Part shown: piece by piece, positions 711-10,794 of the stretch
Layout of the letters: each line of letters opens with the position of its first letter
Position numbering within the stretch: position 1 is the stretch's first letter
Source of the DNA: Myxococcota bacterium
GTDB taxonomy: Bacteria; Myxococcota_A; Bradymonadia; UBA7976; UBA1532
NCBI GenBank assembly: GCA_963169045.1
Contig: CAUJDF010000091.1
Coordinates: 1 to 64,000 of the forward strand
Direction of reading: 5' to 3'
Length of the DNA: 64,000 nucleotides
Notes under the pieces: model-generated
What the model was told of the DNA's origin: nothing
Seen by the model: only the letters and a program-made list of their open reading frames with translations
Databases searched by the model: none
Position numbers and translations under genes: made by a program

Positions 711-1343
711 TCAGGGGGTCAGGGCGAGCTGCAGGTGCCCCAGGGCCTGGGCGCGGTGCTCCACCGTGAGGCGGTACTGACCGGGCGCGAGGGCCGGGAG
801 CGTGGTCCCGTCGGGGCCCAGCGAGCTCAGGGCGCGCGTCTCGCCGCCAGCCGAGAGACGCAGCAGCGCGCCCGCCGGCGGCGGACGGAGGGGGCGCACG
901 GTGAGGGAGAGGCGTTGCGGGCCGTCGGCCTCGAGGTCGACCTCGAGGGGGAGGTCGCCCAGCGTCACCTGGTAGCGCAGGTCGTCGGGCGCGCCCGCCG
1001 CGCCACGAACGGTCACCGCCGCGCCGGGGAGCGGCTGGAGCGCGTCGGCCAGCGGCTGCAGGCGCTCGCCCAGCCAGCGGACGGCGATGCGCAGGACGTT
1101 CAGCGGGTCCGCGTCGACCGGCCAGAGGTCCAGCGCGCGTCGCGTCACCGCGTCGGGGACCGCAGGGGCGCGGGCGAAGGCGTCGGGGCCTTCGTCGCGC
1201 AACACCAGGCCGAGCGCGCCGACCAGCTCGACGCAGTCGGGGCACGCCCGCATCTCGGCGTGCAGCGCGGCCTCGGCCTCGGCGGGCAGGAGGCCGTCGA
1301 AGTACGCGGCGAGGGTTTCTTCGTCGGGGCAGCGGTGCTTCAC
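711..1343 (-). CDS. Zinc-finger anti-sigma factor
   Basis: 210 residues. The N-terminus carries a zf-HC2-like cluster (H28, C34, C37, with C5 nearby), the zinc-binding module that many anti-sigma factors use to hold an ECF sigma factor. The spacing H-x5-C-x2-C is a little wider than the classic H-x3-C-x2-C. No membrane segment is evident, so this would be a cytoplasmic anti-sigma; the C-terminal 110 residues resemble a small beta-rich sensory domain but are not recognised. It lies 52 bases downstream of the ECF sigma gene on the same strand, the usual sigma/anti-sigma order, and probably inhibits that factor. Confidence 0.75.
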   Translation of the reverse strand: MKHRCPDEETLAAYFDGLLPAEAEAALHAEMRACPDCVELVGALGLVLRDEGPDAFARAPAVPDAVTRRALDLWPVDADPLNVLRIAVRWLGERLQPLADALQPLPGAAVTVRGAAGAPDDLRYQVTLGDLPLEVDLEADGPQRLSLTVRPLRPPPAGALLRLSAGGETRALSSLGPDGTTLPALAPGQYRLTVEHRAQALGHLQLALTP

Positions 1344-1395: not shown

Positions 1396-2019
1396 TTACG
1401 CGCCGTCGAGCAGGCCCCCCTGCTCGGCGAGGACGCGCAACCGCTGGATGAGGCGCGTCTTGCGCGTGTAGACGGCGCCGCGCGTCGTGCGAAAGGTCGC
1501 GGCGATGGTCTCCGCCGGCAGCTTCTTCACGTAGATGAGCTCGAGCAGCAAGCGATCGGACGGGCTCAGCGACGACGCGAGCCGCTCGAGGCGCTCGCCG
1601 CGCGCCTCGTCGTCGCGGGCGAGCAGTCGCTCGAGCGGATCGGGCGACGGATCGGCGGGCGCGGCCATGCCCGGGCCGTCATCGTCGCGCGTCTCGTCGA
1701 GCGAGAGGTGGCCGCGCCGCCGCCGCAGTGCGTCGAGCGTGCGCCGCACCGTGATGATGCGCACCCACGAGCGCACCGTGCAGCCGTTGCGGCCGGTGTA
1801 AGCGCGCAACCGTCGACGGTCGTCCTCGAGCAGCGCCATGAAGAGCTCGTTGTGGAGGTCGGCGAGCTCCGCTTCGTCGAGCGCCACGTCGTACCTGCGC
1901 GCCGTGAGCTGGATCAGGAAGTAGACGTAGCGGGTGAAGCGGCGGACGAACGTCGTCCAGGCGGTTCGATCGCCGGCGATGCACGCGTCGAGGAGCGCGC
2001 GGTCTTCGTCCGCTTCCAT
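1396..2019 (-). CDS. ECF-type RNA polymerase sigma factor
   Basis: 207 residues. Region 2 spans about 10-95 (LLDACIAGDRTAWTTFVRRF, then the RSWVRIITVRRTLD helix) and region 4 about 135-200, with a helix-turn-helix around LPAETIAATFRTTRGAVYTR. The acidic linker between them (residues about 107-125) is typical of extracytoplasmic-function sigma factors. The anti-sigma gene follows after 52 bases and a Gly-rich lipoprotein gene precedes it by 49 bases, so the three are probably one transcript. The CHAT/ATPase gene is divergent from this unit, making it a candidate target, which is inference only. Confidence 0.85.
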   Translation of the reverse strand: MEADEDRALLDACIAGDRTAWTTFVRRFTRYVYFLIQLTARRYDVALDEAELADLHNELFMALLEDDRRRLRAYTGRNGCTVRSWVRIITVRRTLDALRRRRGHLSLDETRDDDGPGMAAPADPSPDPLERLLARDDEARGERLERLASSLSPSDRLLLELIYVKKLPAETIAATFRTTRGAVYTRKTRLIQRLRVLAEQGGLLDGA

Positions 2020-2068: not shown

Positions 2069-2665
2069 TCAGCCGCCGTCGGCCGATCCGGAGGTGGCGT
2101 CGGCGCGCCCGCCACAGCCGCTGTCGGCGGCCGCGCACGCGTCGGGGCCGCCGTCGACGTGGGCGTCGCCGGGGCCGCCGTCGACGTCGGCGTCGCCGGG
2201 GCCGCCGTCGACGTGGGCGTCGCCCGAGCCGCCGTCGACGTGGGCGTCGCCGGGGCCGCCGTCGACGTGGGCGTCGCCCGAGCCGCCGTCGACGTGGGCG
2301 TCGCCGGGGCCGCCGTCGACGTGGGCGTCGCCCGGGGACGCGTCCGGCAGCACACCGGCGTCGCCGGTCGCGCCGCCTTCTCCGCCGGCGCCGCCCTGAC
2401 CGCCGGCGCCGCCCTGGCCGCCGGCGCCGCCCTGACCGCCGGCGCCGCCCTGACCGCCGGCGCCGCCTTCTCCGCCGCCACCACCGCCGCCGGCGCCCGC
2501 GTCCGGAGGGGCCGCGCCGCCGCCGGCGCCACCGACGCCGCCGCCGCCGTCGTCCGCCTTCTCGGGCTCGGGCGTCCACCCGCAGCCACCGGCGCCCGCC
2601 GACAGCGCGATCGCGAGCGCGATGGCGCGCCACATCCCAACGATGGCGAAGTTCGCTCCCCGCAT
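2069..2665 (-). CDS. Gly/Ala-rich repeat lipoprotein
   Basis: 198 residues from the ATG at 2665; an alternative ATG at 2635 removes ten residues and gives a more normal signal peptide (MWRAIALAIALSAGAGGC). A lipobox ends at the Cys of AGGC, so the protein should be exported and lipidated. The mature part is almost entirely low complexity: GGQGGA hexapeptides, then seven 9-residue (P/S)GDAHVDGG units. Such Gly-rich and Asp/His-rich spacers follow the lipid anchor in many myxobacterial lipoproteins; here almost nothing else follows. It leads the sigma/anti-sigma unit and faces the CHAT gene across a 63-base divergent promoter region. Confidence 0.7.
   Translation of the reverse strand: MRGANFAIVGMWRAIALAIALSAGAGGCGWTPEPEKADDGGGGVGGAGGGAAPPDAGAGGGGGGGEGGAGGQGGAGGQGGAGGQGGAGGQGGAGGEGGATGDAGVLPDASPGDAHVDGGPGDAHVDGGSGDAHVDGGPGDAHVDGGSGDAHVDGGPGDADVDGGPGDAHVDGGPDACAAADSGCGGRADATSGSADGG
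2148..2336. repeat. Seven 27-bp coding tandem repeats
   Basis: Seven nearly identical 27-base units in the lipoprotein gene, each encoding (P/S)GDAHVDGG (one unit has DADV). The units differ mostly by P/S exchanges, so copy number could change by slippage. Confidence 0.9.
2372..2470. repeat. 18-bp coding tandem repeats
   Basis: About five 18-base units encoding GGQGGA or GGEGGA in the same lipoprotein gene. GC is extreme. The units form the Gly-rich linker just after the lipid anchor region. Confidence 0.85.
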
Positions 2666-2728
2666 GCGTCCCACCCGACGAGCCCGGAGGGCGGAGCTTA
2701 CACGCGACCCGGCGACCGAGTCTCTCGT

Positions 2729-5700
2729 ATGATGCCCGCCGTGTCCGACACCCCCGCCCTCCCGCGGATGACCCTCGGCTTCGCCGTCGAAGCGCCGGGC
2801 GACGCCGCCGTCTGGCTCGCGACGGGCGACGCCGCCGGTCGCGCGGCGCGCTGGTGGTACGAGCGCCACCGCTTCGACACCGGCCGCGCCGCCGAAGAGG
2901 CGGCCGCACTGCGGCGCGCGCTGCGCCGCGTCGTGGAGCGGGCGGGCGACGCCGACGTGCTCGCCACCCACGGCCGGCTGCTCTTCGACCTGCTCCTGCC
3001 GGCGCCGGTGAAGGAGACGCTGCGCGCCGCGCCGGGGGGGCTCCTCACGGTGGCGGCGGGCGGTGAAGCGGGCGACGTGCCCTGGCCGCTGCTGCACGAC
3101 GGCCAGGACTTCCTCGGGACGCGCTGGGCCCTCGGCGAGGTCGCGGCCCGCGCCGACGCGCGCCCGCCCGCACCCCCGGTCGACCGCGACCGCCTGTTGG
3201 TGATCGCCGATCCCGCGGGGGACCTGCCGGCGGCGCGCTTCGAGGGCGAGGCGCTGCTGCGCGAGTGGACGGAGGGGGCGGGCGGCCTCGCCTGCGATCT
3301 GCGCCTCGGCGCGCTGCGCGTGGGGGATTTTCTCAGGATTTTCAGGACGTTCCGATTCGTTCACTTCGCGGGTCACGCGGTCGCGGGCGACGCTGACGGG
3401 CCTGCCGGCTGGCAGTTCGCCGACGGGCGGCTCGGCGTGGCGGAGCTGGCGGCGCTCGGCGGCGGCGCCGGCCCCGCGATGATCTTCGCCAACGCTTGCG
3501 GCTCCGCCGGTCCCGCGGGCCCGATCGCCGAGGCGTTGCTGGCCGGCGGCGTGCGGCACTTCGTCGGCACGTTGGTGGACCTGCCGGATCTGCCCGGCGC
3601 CGACTTCGCGCGGCACGTGTATCGGTCGCTCGCGGAGGGTCTGCCGGTCGGCGAGGCGCTCCGCCGGGCGCGGGCGACGGCGCGGCGCGACGGGGCCGGC
3701 GTCTGGGCGGCCTACAGGCTGTACGGCGATCCGGAGACGGCGTGGTTCCGGCCGCGGCCCACGGAGCGCTTCGCGCTGGGCGTCCGTACCGGGGTGCTGC
3801 TGGCGGCGCGGCGGCCCGCCGAGGCGGATCCGCCCGCGGTGGAGGCGTTCGCCGAGGCGCGCGCCGCCTGGCGGGCGGCGTTTCGGGAGGCGGTCTCGGC
3901 GGAGGGGGGGCGTCTGTTGCCGGGGCGCGGCGCGGTGGACCGCGCGGTCTTCGGGCTGCCCGTCAGCCACGAGAACGACGCGGCGCGGGCGGCGCGCGCG
4001 GCCTGCCGGCTGCGGTCGGAGCTCGGTCCCGGCGGCGTGGCGGTGGTGGTGTCCGGGCAGATGGTCGCCGTGGGGGCCGACGTCGTGGGGCCGGCGGCGG
4101 CCGAGGCGGAGGCGGCGGCGTGGCGTCTGCCCGCCGGGGTGTACGCGCTCCCGGCCGCGGCGCGGCGCCTGGCGGACGCGGTGGCGCTCGGCCCGGGCGT
4201 CGAGGGCGCGGTGGCGATCCTCGGTCCCGGCGGACCGGCGGTCGTCGAGGACACGCCGCTCGTCGGGCGCGCCGCCGAGATCGCGCGCCTCGAGGAGGCC
4301 GCGGCGCAGGTGCTGCGCGCGGGCGCGCCGGCGGCGGCGACGTTGCTGGCGCCGGCGGGCATGGGCAAGTCGCGGCTCGCGACGGCGCTGGCGGAGCGCC
4401 TCGCCGATCGCTTCACCGTCCTGCGCGGCGCGGGGGTGCCCTACGACGAGGCGAGCCCGTTCGCCGCAGTCTCGGGCGTCCTGCGCGACCTGCTGGGCGT
4501 CGACGAGAGCGCGCCGCCGGCGCGGGTCCGGCAGCGGCTCTCGGCGCTCCTGGCGCGACTCGACGCGGAGGAGACGGCGACCGGGGTGCTCTCGATCGAC
4601 GCCCTGCTGGCGGGCGAGGGCGGGCGGGCGAGGCTCTCGGGCCGCGAGCCCGTCCTGGCCGCCGCGCTGGGCCTGGGGGCCGACGAGGGGCGGGGGAGCA
4701 CCGTCGAGGCGGGGCTGGTCCCGGCGGCGGTGCGGGAGCTCGTGGCGGCCGCGGCGCGGCACCGGCCGCTGCTCCTCGTGTTCGAGGACCTGCACTGGCT
4801 GCCCGACGCCGGCCTCGCGGTGGTCGACGAGCTGCTCGCCGGACTGCGCGGCGTGCCGGTGTTCCTGTTGTCGACCGCCCGCACGGAGCTGCTCGATCGT
4901 GCGCCGCACTGGTTCGAGTCGGCGCGCCACCTGCGCCTCGACCTCGGGCCGCTTTCGGCGCGCGAGTCGGAGGCGCTGCTGCGGCAGGTCGCGCCGCCGG
5001 ATCTCGACGAGGTCGCCGCCAAGGCGCTGCTGGACCGCGCCGAGGGCAACCCGCTCTTCCTGCGCGAGCTCGGCCTGGCGCGCGCCGACGACGCGGAGCT
5101 GCCCGCCAGCGTCGAGGCGGTCGTGCTGGCGCGCCTCGACCGGCAGACGCCGTTCGAGCGCGAGGTGCTGCGGGCGGCGGCGGTGCTCGGCCGCACGTTC
5201 TGGCGCGAGGGCGTCGAGCGGCTGTTGCAGCGGCCGGGCGTCGAGGCCGCGCTCGAGGCGCTCGCCGCGCGCCGCTTCGTCGTCCGTCGCGCGGCGGGCG
5301 AGCCGGCCGGGCTCGTGGAGTGGCGCTTCACGCACGCGATCCTGCAGGAGGTGGTGTACCGCGGCATGGGGGCGCGTCCCCGGGCGGCCTACCACGGTCG
5401 GGCGGCGCTGTGGCTCGGCGAAGAGCAGGCGCCCGTCTGGTCGCGCGTCGCCGCGCACTTCGCCGCGGCGGGGGACACGGCGCGCGCGACGACGGCGTGG
5501 CTGCGCGCGGGGGCGCAGGCGGCGGAGGGCCTGGCGCCCGTCGAGGCGCGGCGGGCATATGAGGCCGCGCTGGCGCAGGACGACGCGGCGGGAGGCGTGC
5601 TCGACGCGGCGTCGCGCGCCCACGCCGAGGAGGAGCTGGCGGACCTCGCGCGGGCGGCCGGCGATCCGGCCGAGGCGGCGCGGCGGCTCGACGCGGCCGT

Positions 5701-6829
5701 GGCCCGCACGCCCGCGTGCGACGTCGCGCGGCGCGCCGAGCGGATGCGCAAGCGGGCCGAGGTCGACGAGACGCTGGGCGACCTTTGCGCCGCGCGGGCG
5801 CGCCTGACGGACGCGCTCTCGCTGCTCGAGGCCGCCGCCGACGGCGAGGCGCGGGTCGTGCGCATCCGCTGTCGCCGCGACGAGGGCTGGCTCTGCCACC
5901 GCGACGGCGACTACGAGGGCGCCGTGGCGCGCCTCTCGGCGCTGCTCGCCGAGGTGCGGCCGACGGAGCAGTCGCTGCTCGGCGCGGTCCACAACGCGCT
6001 CGGCGTCGCGGCCTACGCGCGCGGCGAGTTCGCCGCCGCCGAGCATCACTACCGGCGCGCGCTCTCGGCCTACGAGGCCGCCGGCGACGAGTCGCGCATC
6101 GCCACCTTGAACAACAACCTGAGCATCCTCGCCGAGAAGCAGGGGGACTTCGCGACCGCCGTCGCCTGCCAGCAGCGCGCGCTGCGCATCAAGGCCGCCC
6201 GCGGGGACCGGGCGGGCCTCGCGCGCTGCTACAACAACCTCGGCACCATCTACGGCGAGATGGGCGAGTTCGAGCGGGCGAGGGATTTCCTGAGGGAATC
6301 CGTGCGGATACGCGCGCGCGCCGGCGACAGCGGGCTGGCGATCGGCTACGCGAACCTGGGCGAGGCGCACCTGTCGCTCGGCGAGCTCGACGAGGCGCGC
6401 GACTGGCTCGAGCGCGCGATCGCGCTGTGCGACGAGGGGCGCGGTCCGGCGTACCTGCTGCCGGACGCGTGGCGCATGCTGGCCCAGGTGCGCCTCGATC
6501 GCGGCGACGCCGAGGGGGCCGAGGCGGCGGCGCGGCGGGCGCTGGCGCTCGCGGAGGACCACGGGGACCGGCCGCGGGCGGGGGCGGCGCTGCGGGTCCT
6601 CGGCGAGGCGCTGTCGCAGCGCGGCGACGCCGACGCGGCGGACGCGCGCCTGGCCGAGGCCGTAGAGCGGCTCGAGGCCCTCGACCAGCCGCTCGAGCTC
6701 GGCCTGGCGTACGCGGCGCGGGCCCGACACCTGGCGTCCCGCGACGGCGCCGCGGCCGATCGCTGGCGCGCCCGCGCCCGGGAGCTGTTCGCCGCCGTGG
6801 GCGCCACGAGACAGCTCGCCCGGCTGTGA
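2729..6829 (+). CDS. CHAT protease - cyclase-like - STAND ATPase - TPR fusion protein
   Basis: 1366 residues from the ATG at 2729 (a second ATG follows directly). Residues about 120-350 form a CHAT (caspase-like) domain, with FVHFAGHA (His 212 and 216) and FANACGS (Cys 257) as the likely catalytic dyad. About 375-500 resembles a degenerate class III nucleotide cyclase domain (FGLPVSHENDAARAARAA, then VVGPAAAEAEAAAW). About 510-900 is an AAA/STAND ATPase with Walker A PAGMGKS (542-548) and Walker B LLLVFEDLHW (Glu 686, Asp 687). From about 1000 to the end there are TPR units, including YNNLGTIYGEMGEFERARDF. No signal peptide. By analogy with STAND proteins, the TPRs would sense a ligand and the ATPase would gate the protease. 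Confidence 0.85.
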   Translation: MMPAVSDTPALPRMTLGFAVEAPGDAAVWLATGDAAGRAARWWYERHRFDTGRAAEEAAALRRALRRVVERAGDADVLATHGRLLFDLLLPAPVKETLRAAPGGLLTVAAGGEAGDVPWPLLHDGQDFLGTRWALGEVAARADARPPAPPVDRDRLLVIADPAGDLPAARFEGEALLREWTEGAGGLACDLRLGALRVGDFLRIFRTFRFVHFAGHAVAGDADGPAGWQFADGRLGVAELAALGGGAGPAMIFANACGSAGPAGPIAEALLAGGVRHFVGTLVDLPDLPGADFARHVYRSLAEGLPVGEALRRARATARRDGAGVWAAYRLYGDPETAWFRPRPTERFALGVRTGVLLAARRPAEADPPAVEAFAEARAAWRAAFREAVSAEGGRLLPGRGAVDRAVFGLPVSHENDAARAARAACRLRSELGPGGVAVVVSGQMVAVGADVVGPAAAEAEAAAWRLPAGVYALPAAARRLADAVALGPGVEGAVAILGPGGPAVVEDTPLVGRAAEIARLEEAAAQVLRAGAPAAATLLAPAGMGKSRLATALAERLADRFTVLRGAGVPYDEASPFAAVSGVLRDLLGVDESAPPARVRQRLSALLARLDAEETATGVLSIDALLAGEGGRARLSGREPVLAAALGLGADEGRGSTVEAGLVPAAVRELVAAAARHRPLLLVFEDLHWLPDAGLAVVDELLAGLRGVPVFLLSTARTELLDRAPHWFESARHLRLDLGPLSARESEALLRQVAPPDLDEVAAKALLDRAEGNPLFLRELGLARADDAELPASVEAVVLARLDRQTPFEREVLRAAAVLGRTFWREGVERLLQRPGVEAALEALAARRFVVRRAAGEPAGLVEWRFTHAILQEVVYRGMGARPRAAYHGRAALWLGEEQAPVWSRVAAHFAAAGDTARATTAWLRAGAQAAEGLAPVEARRAYEAALAQDDAAGGVLDAASRAHAEEELADLARAAGDPAEAARRLDAAVARTPACDVARRAERMRKRAEVDETLGDLCAARARLTDALSLLEAAADGEARVVRIRCRRDEGWLCHRDGDYEGAVARLSALLAEVRPTEQSLLGAVHNALGVAAYARGEFAAAEHHYRRALSAYEAAGDESRIATLNNNLSILAEKQGDFATAVACQQRALRIKAARGDRAGLARCYNNLGTIYGEMGEFERARDFLRESVRIRARAGDSGLAIGYANLGEAHLSLGELDEARDWLERAIALCDEGRGPAYLLPDAWRMLAQVRLDRGDAEGAEAAARRALALAEDHGDRPRAGAALRVLGEALSQRGDADAADARLAEAVERLEALDQPLELGLAYAARARHLASRDGAAADRWRARARELFAAVGATRQLARL

Positions 6830-6935: not shown

Positions 6936-7574
6936 ATGCGACGGTTGGCAATCGTGCCGCTGGTCTTCGCGCTGGCGCTGGGCTTCGCCGCGCCCGCCCT
7001 GGCCACGACGCTGCTCGAGCTCGACGTGCCCGAGATGGCGCAGCGGTCGGAGCTGGTGTTCGTGGGGCGCGTGGTCGGGCAGTCGAGCCGGCTCGACCGC
7101 GACGCCGAGGGCATCCGCGTCCTCACCGACACCGCGTTCGCGGTGGATCGCGTGCTGAAGGGCGAGAAGATCCGCGACTTCACGCTCACCCAGATCGGCG
7201 GCACGGCGGGCGAGGGGACGGAGCGTCGCACGCAGGTCGTGCATGCCCAGGCCGCCTTCCAGGTGGGCGAGTCGGTGGTGCTCTTCCTCGAGCGCACGAC
7301 CACGGGCCGCCTCGTCCCCACGGGCATGGAGCAGGGCAAGTACACGCTCTCTCCGGGCGAGCCGCCGCTGGCCGTGCGCCAGTCCTACAAGCCGCGCGCG
7401 GCGAAGGTGCGTGAAGCGCGCGTGAAGACGTTCGCCGGCGCCCCCCTGGACGGCGACCGGCTGACGCTGCCGCAGCTCGAGGCGCTGATCCGCGGCGAGC
7501 GCCCCGTGCCGGCGCCGGTCCGCGTGCTGCGCACGCCCCAGGTGAGCCTGCCGAAGCCGGAGGTGCGGCGATGA
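6936..7574 (+). CDS. Secreted protein of unknown function, coupled to the metalloprotease
   Basis: 212 residues with a clear signal peptide (about residues 1-23, ending ALA). The mature part has a pattern common in myxobacterial secreted proteins found beside matrixins: a 'seldom named' beta-rich domain with RSELVFVGRVV, VDRVLKGE and FQVGESVVLFL. A good ribosome site (GGGGAG) lies about 9 bases upstream of the ATG. Its stop codon overlaps the start of the next gene (ATGA at 7571), so the two are translationally coupled. It might be an inhibitor, chaperone or co-factor for that protease; this is inference from position only. Confidence 0.7.
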   Translation: MRRLAIVPLVFALALGFAAPALATTLLELDVPEMAQRSELVFVGRVVGQSSRLDRDAEGIRVLTDTAFAVDRVLKGEKIRDFTLTQIGGTAGEGTERRTQVVHAQAAFQVGESVVLFLERTTTGRLVPTGMEQGKYTLSPGEPPLAVRQSYKPRAAKVREARVKTFAGAPLDGDRLTLPQLEALIRGERPVPAPVRVLRTPQVSLPKPEVRR

Positions 7575-9271
7575 GGCGCGCGATCCGATTCGGCCTCGCG
7601 GGCGTCCTTCTCGTGGCGGGCGGCGCCGTCGCCTACGAGTGGCAGGGCGCGAAGTGGGCGCGCTCCGAGATGCCGGTGCCCTATGTGGTCAACGCCACGC
7701 TGTCGGCGGACCTGCCCGATCGCGAGGCGCTCGAGGGCGTCCAGACGGGCTTCAACGCGTGGAACGCGCTGCCCTGCTCGTTCATGCGGTGGGAGTACAA
7801 GGGCCGCACCGAGAACCGCGCGTGGGGCGCCGACGACGGCGAGAACGTCGTCTCGTGGCGCGAGGACAACTGGGACGACTCGCCGTCGGCACTCGCCATC
7901 TGCAGCTCCATCTGGAACTTCCAGGGCAACCTCAGCGACACCGACGTGAAGTTCAACGGGTTCCACCACCAGTGGGCCCACTTCCGGAACGGCGGCGGCG
8001 GCGGTGGCACCGACATCGCCAGCGTCCAGGCGCACGAGTCGGGCCACGCGCTCGGCCTCGGCCACAGCAACGTGCCGGGCTCGACGATGTGGCCGAGCAC
8101 CGGGCCGGGCGACATCAGCGGCCGCTCGCTGGGCGCCGACGACATCCAGGGGGCCTGCGAGGTCTATCCGTCGGGCGGCGACGTGCCCGATCCCGACGAG
8201 GACCCGCCGCCGCCCGAGGGCACCGTCGACTACGGCGGCGACTGCTCGCGCGACAACTGCAAGGAGGGCCTCTTCTGCGTCAGCGACGGCCGCGAGTCGT
8301 ATTGCACGCGGGTGTGCACGCCCCCCGAGAACACCTGCGGCAACGGCTGGTACTGCGCGCAGCTGTCCGGCGGCGGCGGCGCGTGCGCCAAGGGCGAGGA
8401 TCCGCGCGGCGCGCTCGCCGGCTTCGGCGAGGCCTGCGGCGCCGACAAGGCCTGCGAGGCGGGCCTGATCTGCGTCAACGACGACGAGAGCCTGTACTGC
8501 ACCGGTCCGTGCGCCGACGGCGCCTGCCCCGGCGGCTACTTCTGCATCGACCTGCAGGGCGGCGGCAACGCCTGCGCCCGGGGCGAGGGCATGGGCGGCC
8601 CCGGCGACCTGCCCGGCGCGGGCGAGCCGTGCACCGACCGCGGCCTGTGCCAGAACGGCCTCTTCTGCATCAACGACGCGAGCAACGTGAACGACCAGGG
8701 CGACGTCGTGCCGTACTGCACGAAGTCCTGCGACGACGGCGCCTGCGACGACGGCTTCCGCTGCGTCGAGGTCCAGCCCTCGGGCACGGCGTGTCAGAAG
8801 ATCCCCAGCGCCGGCAACCGGAAGCTCGGCGATCAGTGCTGGGTCAACCCCGAGTTCCCGTGGGAGCAGCCGAGCTGCGGCGCCGGCCTCATCTGCGTCG
8901 ACTTCGTCCAGCGCAACCAGGAGGTCGTCGAGCCGGGCACGTGCAGCAAGAACTGCACGAAGGACGACTGCTGCCCCGAGGGCTGGGGCTGCGCCGAGCT
9001 GACGCCCGTGTTCGCCCAGTGCCGCCAGGGCGAGACCGACTCGCCCAGCTTCGCCTGCGCCGGCACGCGTCCGCCCATCGACGATCCGCTCGATCCGGTG
9101 GGCGGCTCGGGCGGCTCTGGCGGGGCCGGCGGCGCCGGCGGCGGCGTCGGCGTGGACGAGGGGGGGGACGGCGGCGGGTGCGCCGCTGCCGGCCACGCCC
9201 TCTCGCCGATCTGGCCCGCAATGGCGCTGCTCCTGCCGATCCTCGCCCGCCGCCGTCGCCCCCGCCCGTGA
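7571..9271 (+). CDS. Matrixin-type zinc metalloprotease with Cys-rich repeats and MYXO-CTERM-like tail
   Basis: 566 residues: signal peptide (about 1-21), a metzincin catalytic domain, then Cys-rich repeats and a sorting tail. HESGHALGLGH (155-165) is the three-His zinc site, followed by the Met-turn residue in STMWP. Residues about 215-480 hold four or five repeats with six or more Cys each (GLFCVSDGRESYC and similar), probably disulfide-bonded. The end has a GGSGGAGG linker, a GGGC motif, a hydrophobic helix and RRRRPRP, matching the MYXO-CTERM arrangement that anchors proteins to the myxobacterial surface after cleavage. Probably a secreted, surface-displayed protease. It overlaps the preceding gene by four bases. 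Confidence 0.88.
   Translation: MRRAIRFGLAGVLLVAGGAVAYEWQGAKWARSEMPVPYVVNATLSADLPDREALEGVQTGFNAWNALPCSFMRWEYKGRTENRAWGADDGENVVSWREDNWDDSPSALAICSSIWNFQGNLSDTDVKFNGFHHQWAHFRNGGGGGGTDIASVQAHESGHALGLGHSNVPGSTMWPSTGPGDISGRSLGADDIQGACEVYPSGGDVPDPDEDPPPPEGTVDYGGDCSRDNCKEGLFCVSDGRESYCTRVCTPPENTCGNGWYCAQLSGGGGACAKGEDPRGALAGFGEACGADKACEAGLICVNDDESLYCTGPCADGACPGGYFCIDLQGGGNACARGEGMGGPGDLPGAGEPCTDRGLCQNGLFCINDASNVNDQGDVVPYCTKSCDDGACDDGFRCVEVQPSGTACQKIPSAGNRKLGDQCWVNPEFPWEQPSCGAGLICVDFVQRNQEVVEPGTCSKNCTKDDCCPEGWGCAELTPVFAQCRQGETDSPSFACAGTRPPIDDPLDPVGGSGGSGGAGGAGGGVGVDEGGDGGGCAAAGHALSPIWPAMALLLPILARRRRPRP

Positions 9272-9369: not shown

Positions 9370-10794
<1,425 letters not shown>

Follow-up and report, generated by a model that had tools for sequence, protein, structure and literature searches.

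A CHAT–STAND ATPase protein linked to an ECF sigma/anti-sigma pair in Myxococcota, with a conserved linker arginine as candidate cleavage site

In type III-E CRISPR systems, CASP-sigma is inhibited by Csx30, which the TPR-CHAT protease Csx29 cuts; as described in PMC10028731, the CHAT protease, the sigma inhibitor and the extracytoplasmic function (ECF)-type sigma factor are encoded together, and the proposed logic is that the CHAT cut relieves sigma inhibition. A comparable module comprises CalpL, which cuts CalpT, which in turn holds the ECF sigma factor CalpS (PMC11417357). CHAT proteins are also found in the neighbourhoods of ECF54 sigma factors, for which a review presents proteolytic control as a proposal (PMC8999054), and SAVED-CHAT effectors have been described in PMC11229360. 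Here we analyzed a locus at the start of contig CAUJDF010000091.1 of a Myxococcota bacterium (GenBank assembly GCA_963169045.1), within a stretch of 64,000 nucleotides referred to as the window, in which a gene for a CHAT, pseudo-cyclase, STAND ATPase and TPR protein lies divergent from genes for a lipoprotein, an ECF sigma factor and an anti-sigma. On balance, we favor the interpretation that this is a CRISPR-free system resembling Csx29/Csx30/CASP-sigma, in which the STAND-gated CHAT protease would cut the anti-sigma and free the sigma factor.

The window system shares with type III-E the joint presence of a CHAT protease, a sigma inhibitor and an ECF-type sigma factor (PMC10028731). Unlike in Csx29, the CHAT domain is N-terminal on a pseudo-cyclase/STAND/TPR chain, and the presumed inhibitor, small and zinc-finger-like, has a single invariant arginine in its linker, whereas the Craspase cut sites reported in PMC11106740 vary. 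Protease, anti-sigma and ECF sigma factor form one module here as in the CalpL system; however, CalpL is a Lon-type protease with a SAVED sensor and is switched on by cyclic tetra-adenylate (PMC11417357). The likeness to the ECF54 group, an ECF sigma factor with a CHAT protein in a conserved neighborhood, is by neighborhood only; control in that group was proposed without an anti-sigma, which the window system has, and its model member is actinobacterial (PMC8999054). That CHAT neighborhood is already reported. Among PDB sequences, the window CHAT domain has only one clear relative, the SAVED-CHAT protein 8tl0 (E 2.3e-7), which has another sensor and another domain order. No CRISPR array was found in window 1-30000 (the contig begins at window base 1) and no Cas gene among the neighbors scanned; Cas7-11 was not searched for elsewhere in the genome. 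Searches of the open-access literature yielded no STAND-gated CHAT protein with a pseudo-cyclase, no link of CHAT to this anti-sigma class and no mention of the invariant arginine.

The preliminary description of this gene had placed a caspase-like CHAT protease with intact His and Cys residues in one chain with an ATPase and TPR sensors, and the analysis bears this out. Pfam matched PF12770 to residues 82-334 (80.2 bits against a cut-off of 24, E 2.3e-22), AAA_16 to residues 510-712 (64.2 bits over a cut-off of 32.6, E 2.7e-17), and TPR_12 (E 1.9e-35) to the repeats that start at about residue 1057. We aligned nine full-length proteins end to end, namely the window protein and eight relatives with 41-55% identity to it (L048, L049, L050, L052, L053, L054, L055 and L057). 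His212, His216, Asn255 and Cys257 are invariant in all nine, as are the Walker A (AGxGK) and Walker B (ED) motifs, and Gly773 and Pro775 of the GNP motif are likewise invariant. STAND ATPases are recognized by Walker A, Walker B and a GxP-type motif, and by these motifs the window protein is of the STAND type. His212, His216 and Cys257 align with HFIGHG and LNACC of the solved 8tl0 protein and, together with Asp287, are present in 26 of 28 CHAT rows of the compared loci, and the two exceptions are fragments of the L119 frame, which is broken. We take His216 to be the likely catalytic His by analogy with the SHG motif of caspases. The His/Cys dyad is thus intact, and protease activity is predicted.

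The same description had noted a degenerate cyclase-like domain between the CHAT and ATPase domains. Pfam reported nothing in this interval and no Guanylate_cyc match at E<=1. A profile of residues 335-512, built from the nine proteins, matched six class III cyclase domains of the same genome with a probability of 92.3 (E 5.4e-7). Comparing a structure prediction of the segment with class III cyclases, as the description had suggested, recovered that fold: the AlphaFold2 model (predicted local distance difference test 85.3, predicted template modeling score 0.81) returned class III nucleotide cyclases as all of the best 50 of 143 Foldseek matches (E<=0.001), with 2w01 at the top (E 1e-7). Alignments read by hand showed that both metal-site Asp residues are gone in all nine proteins: the strand-1 position is Ala360 (A, V or T in the homologues) and the GD-turn position is Ala402 (A, F, Q or R). 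The segment is therefore a pseudo-cyclase, with a genuine class III fold and a lost metal site, and because that site is lost we rejected second-messenger synthesis and, with it, the cyclase as the key novelty. The ATPase half (residues 507-933) resembles the TIGR03903 TOMM kinase/cyclase proteins, with a score of 101.9 bits that is far under the cut-off of 705.75. This resemblance suggests that the cyclase domain is probably left over from a cyclase-ATPase-TPR chassis, in which the effector position seems to have gone to CHAT. Compared with the TOMM proteins, the window protein has a dead cyclase, and CHAT stands in place of the kinase implied by their family name. Hence the degenerate domain is present as described, although it is probably not the key addition that it had been taken for.

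A search for a substrate gene near homologues, also raised in the preliminary description, points to the anti-sigma as a strong candidate. Arg113 is present in 26 of 26 aligned anti-sigmas and is more conserved than any other residue of the family; this count leaves out a membrane anti-sigma (L138) and treats L098 and L133, which are the same place, as one. The residue that follows is Gly in 21, Ser in three, Thr in one and Tyr in one, and Cys34 and Cys37 are each found in 21. An alignment of 15 rows has His3, Asp7, Cys34, Cys37, Arg113 and Tyr190 as invariant residues, and in a second alignment of 25 rows Arg113 is the sole invariant column, as it is among the 70 scored linker columns. Read by eye outside the alignment, two Planctomycetota members (L149 and L150) have LRGG and LRAG. 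In the structural model, residues 51-119 have low confidence and are probably flexible, with Arg113 near their end and the beta-rich tail next to it. The position thus resembles a protease site between two domains, although conservation alone is no proof. No membrane helix is seen in the anti-sigma (hydropathy over 19 residues peaks at 1.10) and the CHAT protein lacks a leader sequence, so both should be cytosolic. Cutting after Arg is known for paracaspases, and after Arg or Lys for metacaspases (PMC8283722).

The conservation of Arg113 could also be explained if the sigma/anti-sigma pair responds to a signal of its own (redox state or zinc, for instance) and regulates the CHAT gene, whose protease would then have another substrate, while Arg113 would be structural or would bind sigma. 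The divergent layout, the short intergenic region and the promoter-like element described below fit such co-regulation; DSSP assigns a strand to residues 113-117, which would suit a structural role, albeit on the low-confidence model; and the Craspase cut sites reported in PMC11106740 are not conserved. However, Arg113 is kept where the zinc Cys residues are lost and is the sole invariant residue of the scored linker, and in other lineages the same anti-sigma class accompanies CHAT proteins of a different build, as would fit a common substrate. We consider this alternative unlikely, though more plausible than the others weighed below. We regard cleavage of the anti-sigma by the CHAT protease, for which Csx29/Csx30 and CalpL/CalpT serve as precedents, as rather probable, and cleavage at Arg113 itself as evenly balanced.

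A linked sigma/anti-sigma response had been hinted at from the window alone. To survey the neighborhoods, we applied our own profiles to six-frame open reading frames and searched for a lipobox motif. Sigma and lipoprotein genes adjoin the CHAT gene divergently in 10 of the 12 family loci with enough upstream DNA (the window, L049, L052, L053, L054, L055, L056, L057, L061 and L062); two further loci (L050 and L060) start too near to, or inside, the CHAT gene to be counted. The anti-sigma is also present in nine of the ten, the sequence of L052 stopping before it. The CHAT gene was described as divergent from the sigma/anti-sigma unit, which is right, but the lipoprotein gene lies between them. 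This linkage, together with the intact dyad, the ATPase switch and the TPRs, supports the earlier view of the protein as a signaling switch.

Mere co-inheritance of neighbors without joint function would be favored by the orthology or close paralogy of many of the compared loci and by the unlinked CHAT genes of L048 and L050. Yet the paralogous loci L053, L054 and L055 keep both anti-sigma and sigma, and L057 keeps sigma, while the downstream window genes are not kept there, with a weak match to M10 in L055 as the exception. Gene order also differs between lineages (divergent; sigma, anti-sigma, CHAT; or CHAT, sigma, anti-sigma) and the genes are still together. Co-inheritance alone is therefore very improbable.

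The anti-sigma and the CHAT gene also co-occur across genomes. The anti-sigma profile gave 11 matches at E<1e-50 in 57 related genomes (one each in G000, G006, G007, G010 and G011, three each in G008 and G012), and this CHAT gene is present in every one of these genomes, G008 and G012 having three copies of it apiece. Among the 13 genomes of the same family, nine have the CHAT gene and seven of those nine have the anti-sigma; in the other two, the locus meets a contig end (G004) or the assembly is in 1140 contigs (G005). The four without the CHAT gene (G001, G002, G003 and G009) have no strong anti-sigma match. For a test independent of CHAT, we searched 377 genomes of the phylum with the 15-row anti-sigma profile, with matches listed to E about 4e-5. 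Among the matches listed, eight places beyond the 15 rows reach the beta-rich tail; sigma adjoins all eight and CHAT adjoins six (L131, L133, L134, L135, L136 and L137), two of which (L133 and L135) had already surfaced through CHAT searches. At 15 CHAT genes per 9 Mb, the density in the window genome, the chance of six in eight is about 2e-10 assuming independence, which related genomes do not strictly have. In 201 Armatimonadota genomes (matches listed to E about 2e-6), all four full-length anti-sigma matches among those listed lie beside CHAT, and these four were originally reached through CHAT. Within the window genome, a sigma factor detected by Pfam lies within 6 kb of 6 of the 15 CHAT loci (binomial P 5.8e-5), and a more sensitive profile places one near 8 of the other 14. 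We conclude that the module is real and probably functional, and that the CHAT protein and the sigma/anti-sigma pair very probably act in a shared pathway.

The preliminary description had also allowed for a cell-death switch, in which active CHAT would kill the cell or activate a pore-former, as STAND-caspase layouts do elsewhere. PADLOC returned only TPR matches and otherwise no known defence model, no toxin-like or pore-forming partner was recognized among the neighbors examined, and the conserved partners of the CHAT gene are transcription proteins. We rejected the cell-death system for want of such a partner and regard an abortive-infection effector as quite improbable.

We thus return to anti-sigma cleavage, for which we propose the following course. 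The TPRs would be the sensor of a cue, upon which the ATP-binding STAND module may assemble the protein, with the dead cyclase domain serving as a dimerizing or linking element. The assembled CHAT domain would cut the anti-sigma at or near Arg113-Gly114, in the linker between the putative sigma-binding head and the beta-rich tail, and the cut would release the ECF sigma factor, which would transcribe its own lipoprotein-sigma-anti-sigma operon and other genes.

Several observations weigh against this proposal. The CHAT gene is unlinked from the trio in G008 and G006, where the intact trio lies elsewhere (L128 and L129) and the CHAT gene is kept (L048 and L050), and L063 is a CHAT gene without sigma upstream; L048 and L063 are the two checkable family loci without the link. 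Conversely, the anti-sigmas of L132 and L138 have no CHAT nearby (by eye, no other protease was seen among the frames of L132), and the Planctomycetota sigma/anti-sigma pairs of L149 and L150 have no CHAT within about 7 kb. We infer sigma binding by the window anti-sigma from zf-HC2-like heads; Pfam matched zf-HC2 in two of eight anti-sigma rows (best 5.8e-6), five of 26 family members lack the zinc Cys at each Cys column yet have Arg113, and no PDB structure matched the fold of the anti-sigma model at E<=0.001. Finally, a conserved Arg is not predicted by the Craspase precedent, because the cut sites of the three Craspases studied in PMC11106740 vary and lie elsewhere than at Arg.

The minus-strand trio is closely packed, with gaps of 49 and 52 bases, and 93 bases separate the lipoprotein gene from the CHAT gene (Table 1). 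A lipoprotein with the motif C-x-[FW]-x-x-EP is found in all 12 sigma loci (the ten linked loci, L128 and L129), and an upstream [GT]GTA element like GTGTAAG, a weak signal, in 10 of 12. The lipoprotein upstream regions of the window (2697-2716) and of L128, the latter without a CHAT gene alongside, share GGTCGCCGGGTCGC followed by TGTAAG, a candidate sigma promoter. The lipoprotein tail is encoded by a tandem array of a 27-base unit (window 2074-2363); the tails of its homologues are very different, with Gly-Glu runs or Cys-rich repeats, suggesting that it is fast-evolving and probably surface-exposed. On the 3' side of the CHAT gene, window 6936-9271 holds genes for a small secreted protein and a matrixin-type (M10) metalloprotease. 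This pair is kept downstream of CHAT in seven orthologous loci and not at paralogous loci; we therefore dropped it as a core member, and it may belong to the regulon. Window 9370-10794 has matches to both halves of its frame in L048, L049, L051 and L059 and presumably encodes MoaC fused to a GNAT acetyltransferase.

Table 1. Positions of the features of the locus in the window.
Feature	Position	Strand	Basis
CHAT / pseudo-cyclase / STAND ATPase / TPR protein, 1366 residues	2729..6829	+	single open frame
CHAT protease domain, residues 82-334	2972..3730	+	Pfam PF12770; PDB relative 8tl0
H216, likely catalytic His	3374..3376	+	conservation in homologues
C257, likely nucleophile	3497..3499	+	conservation; 8tl0 alignment
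Degenerate class III cyclase domain, about residues 353-500	3785..4228	+	profile, AlphaFold2 model, Foldseek
STAND-type ATPase, residues 507-933 (Walker A 543-547, Walker B 686-687, GNP 773-775)	4247..5527	+	
TPR region, about residues 1057-1357, presumed sensor	5897..6799	+	Pfam
Soluble anti-sigma, 210 residues, GTG start: zinc-finger-like head, linker, beta-rich tail	711..1343	-	
R113-G114 of anti-sigma, candidate cut site	1002..1007	-	conservation
ECF sigma factor	1396..2019	-	TIGR02937, 54.5 bits, cut-off 42.9
Lipoprotein gene: C-x-[FW]-[TI]-x-EP after lipobox Cys, then 9-residue repeat tail	2069..2635	-	
GTGTAAG promoter-like element upstream of lipoprotein gene	2697..2703	-	weak

The same anti-sigma class stands beside CHAT proteins of other architectures: CHAT-DUF4384 proteins (L064-L067), the Armatimonadota CHATs and, in L137, a CHAT-AAA_16 protein of another family, with a middle segment that by eye resembles a cyclase. 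In a tree of 63 CHAT domains, whose deep branches are unsupported, the linked domains are scattered over several N-terminal-CHAT groups, and the C-terminal TPR-CHAT groups lack the link, tandem second copies excepted. Such copies, C-terminal CHAT proteins of about 1000-1150 residues with their own intact His/Cys, are encoded immediately behind the first CHAT gene, in the same orientation, in L064, L065 and L133, perhaps as a two-step protease cascade. Other CHAT genes of the window genome (L068, L071 and L073-L077) mostly encode TPR-CHAT proteins with lipoprotein-like leaders (seen by eye in L068, L075, L076 and L077); many adjoin an ECF sigma gene, and in L075 a membrane-spanning zinc-finger-like protein adjoins the CHAT gene, which looks like a second, extracytoplasmic CHAT-sigma arrangement. 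At about 32-41 kb of G000:C7, a stretch of some 9 kb holds two sigma-factor matches, one CHAT gene and a pair of class III cyclase genes. The idea of a fused zinc-finger-CHAT protein was discarded: PDB 8rot matched the anti-sigma profile only weakly (E 0.0083, best-domain independent E-value 6.3), the open-access literature naming 8rot, 8rw5 or 8rlz held nothing related, and the six frames of roughly 1000 residues with a zinc-finger-like head that were scanned with Pfam are kinases. Ser/Thr kinases with fused zinc-finger-like heads (L139, L141, L142, L145, L147 and L148) mostly carry TPR or STAND parts, some lie beside ECF sigma genes, and they read as a kinase version of the sigma-linked switch.

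Taken more broadly, the locus may represent a CRISPR-free counterpart of NLR-caspase systems with a transcriptional output, comprising a STAND sensor, a caspase-like protease and a dedicated anti-sigma that would be cut at a conserved Arg of its flexible linker. Interchangeable CHAT modules (STAND-gated, DUF4384-type and tandem) would then share one anti-sigma class in Myxococcota, Armatimonadota and perhaps Planctomycetota, and might be a possible source of CRISPR-controlled CHAT-sigma systems; we hold this wider proposal tentatively, at slightly less than even confidence. Arg113 of the anti-sigma offers a substrate prediction of a single residue that is directly testable. If the proposal is true, anti-sigma cleavage by caspase-like enzymes would be a widespread form of bacterial signaling and not something peculiar to type III-E CRISPR, and a STAND-caspase pair would be wired to transcription rather than to death, which bears on the origin of such pairs.

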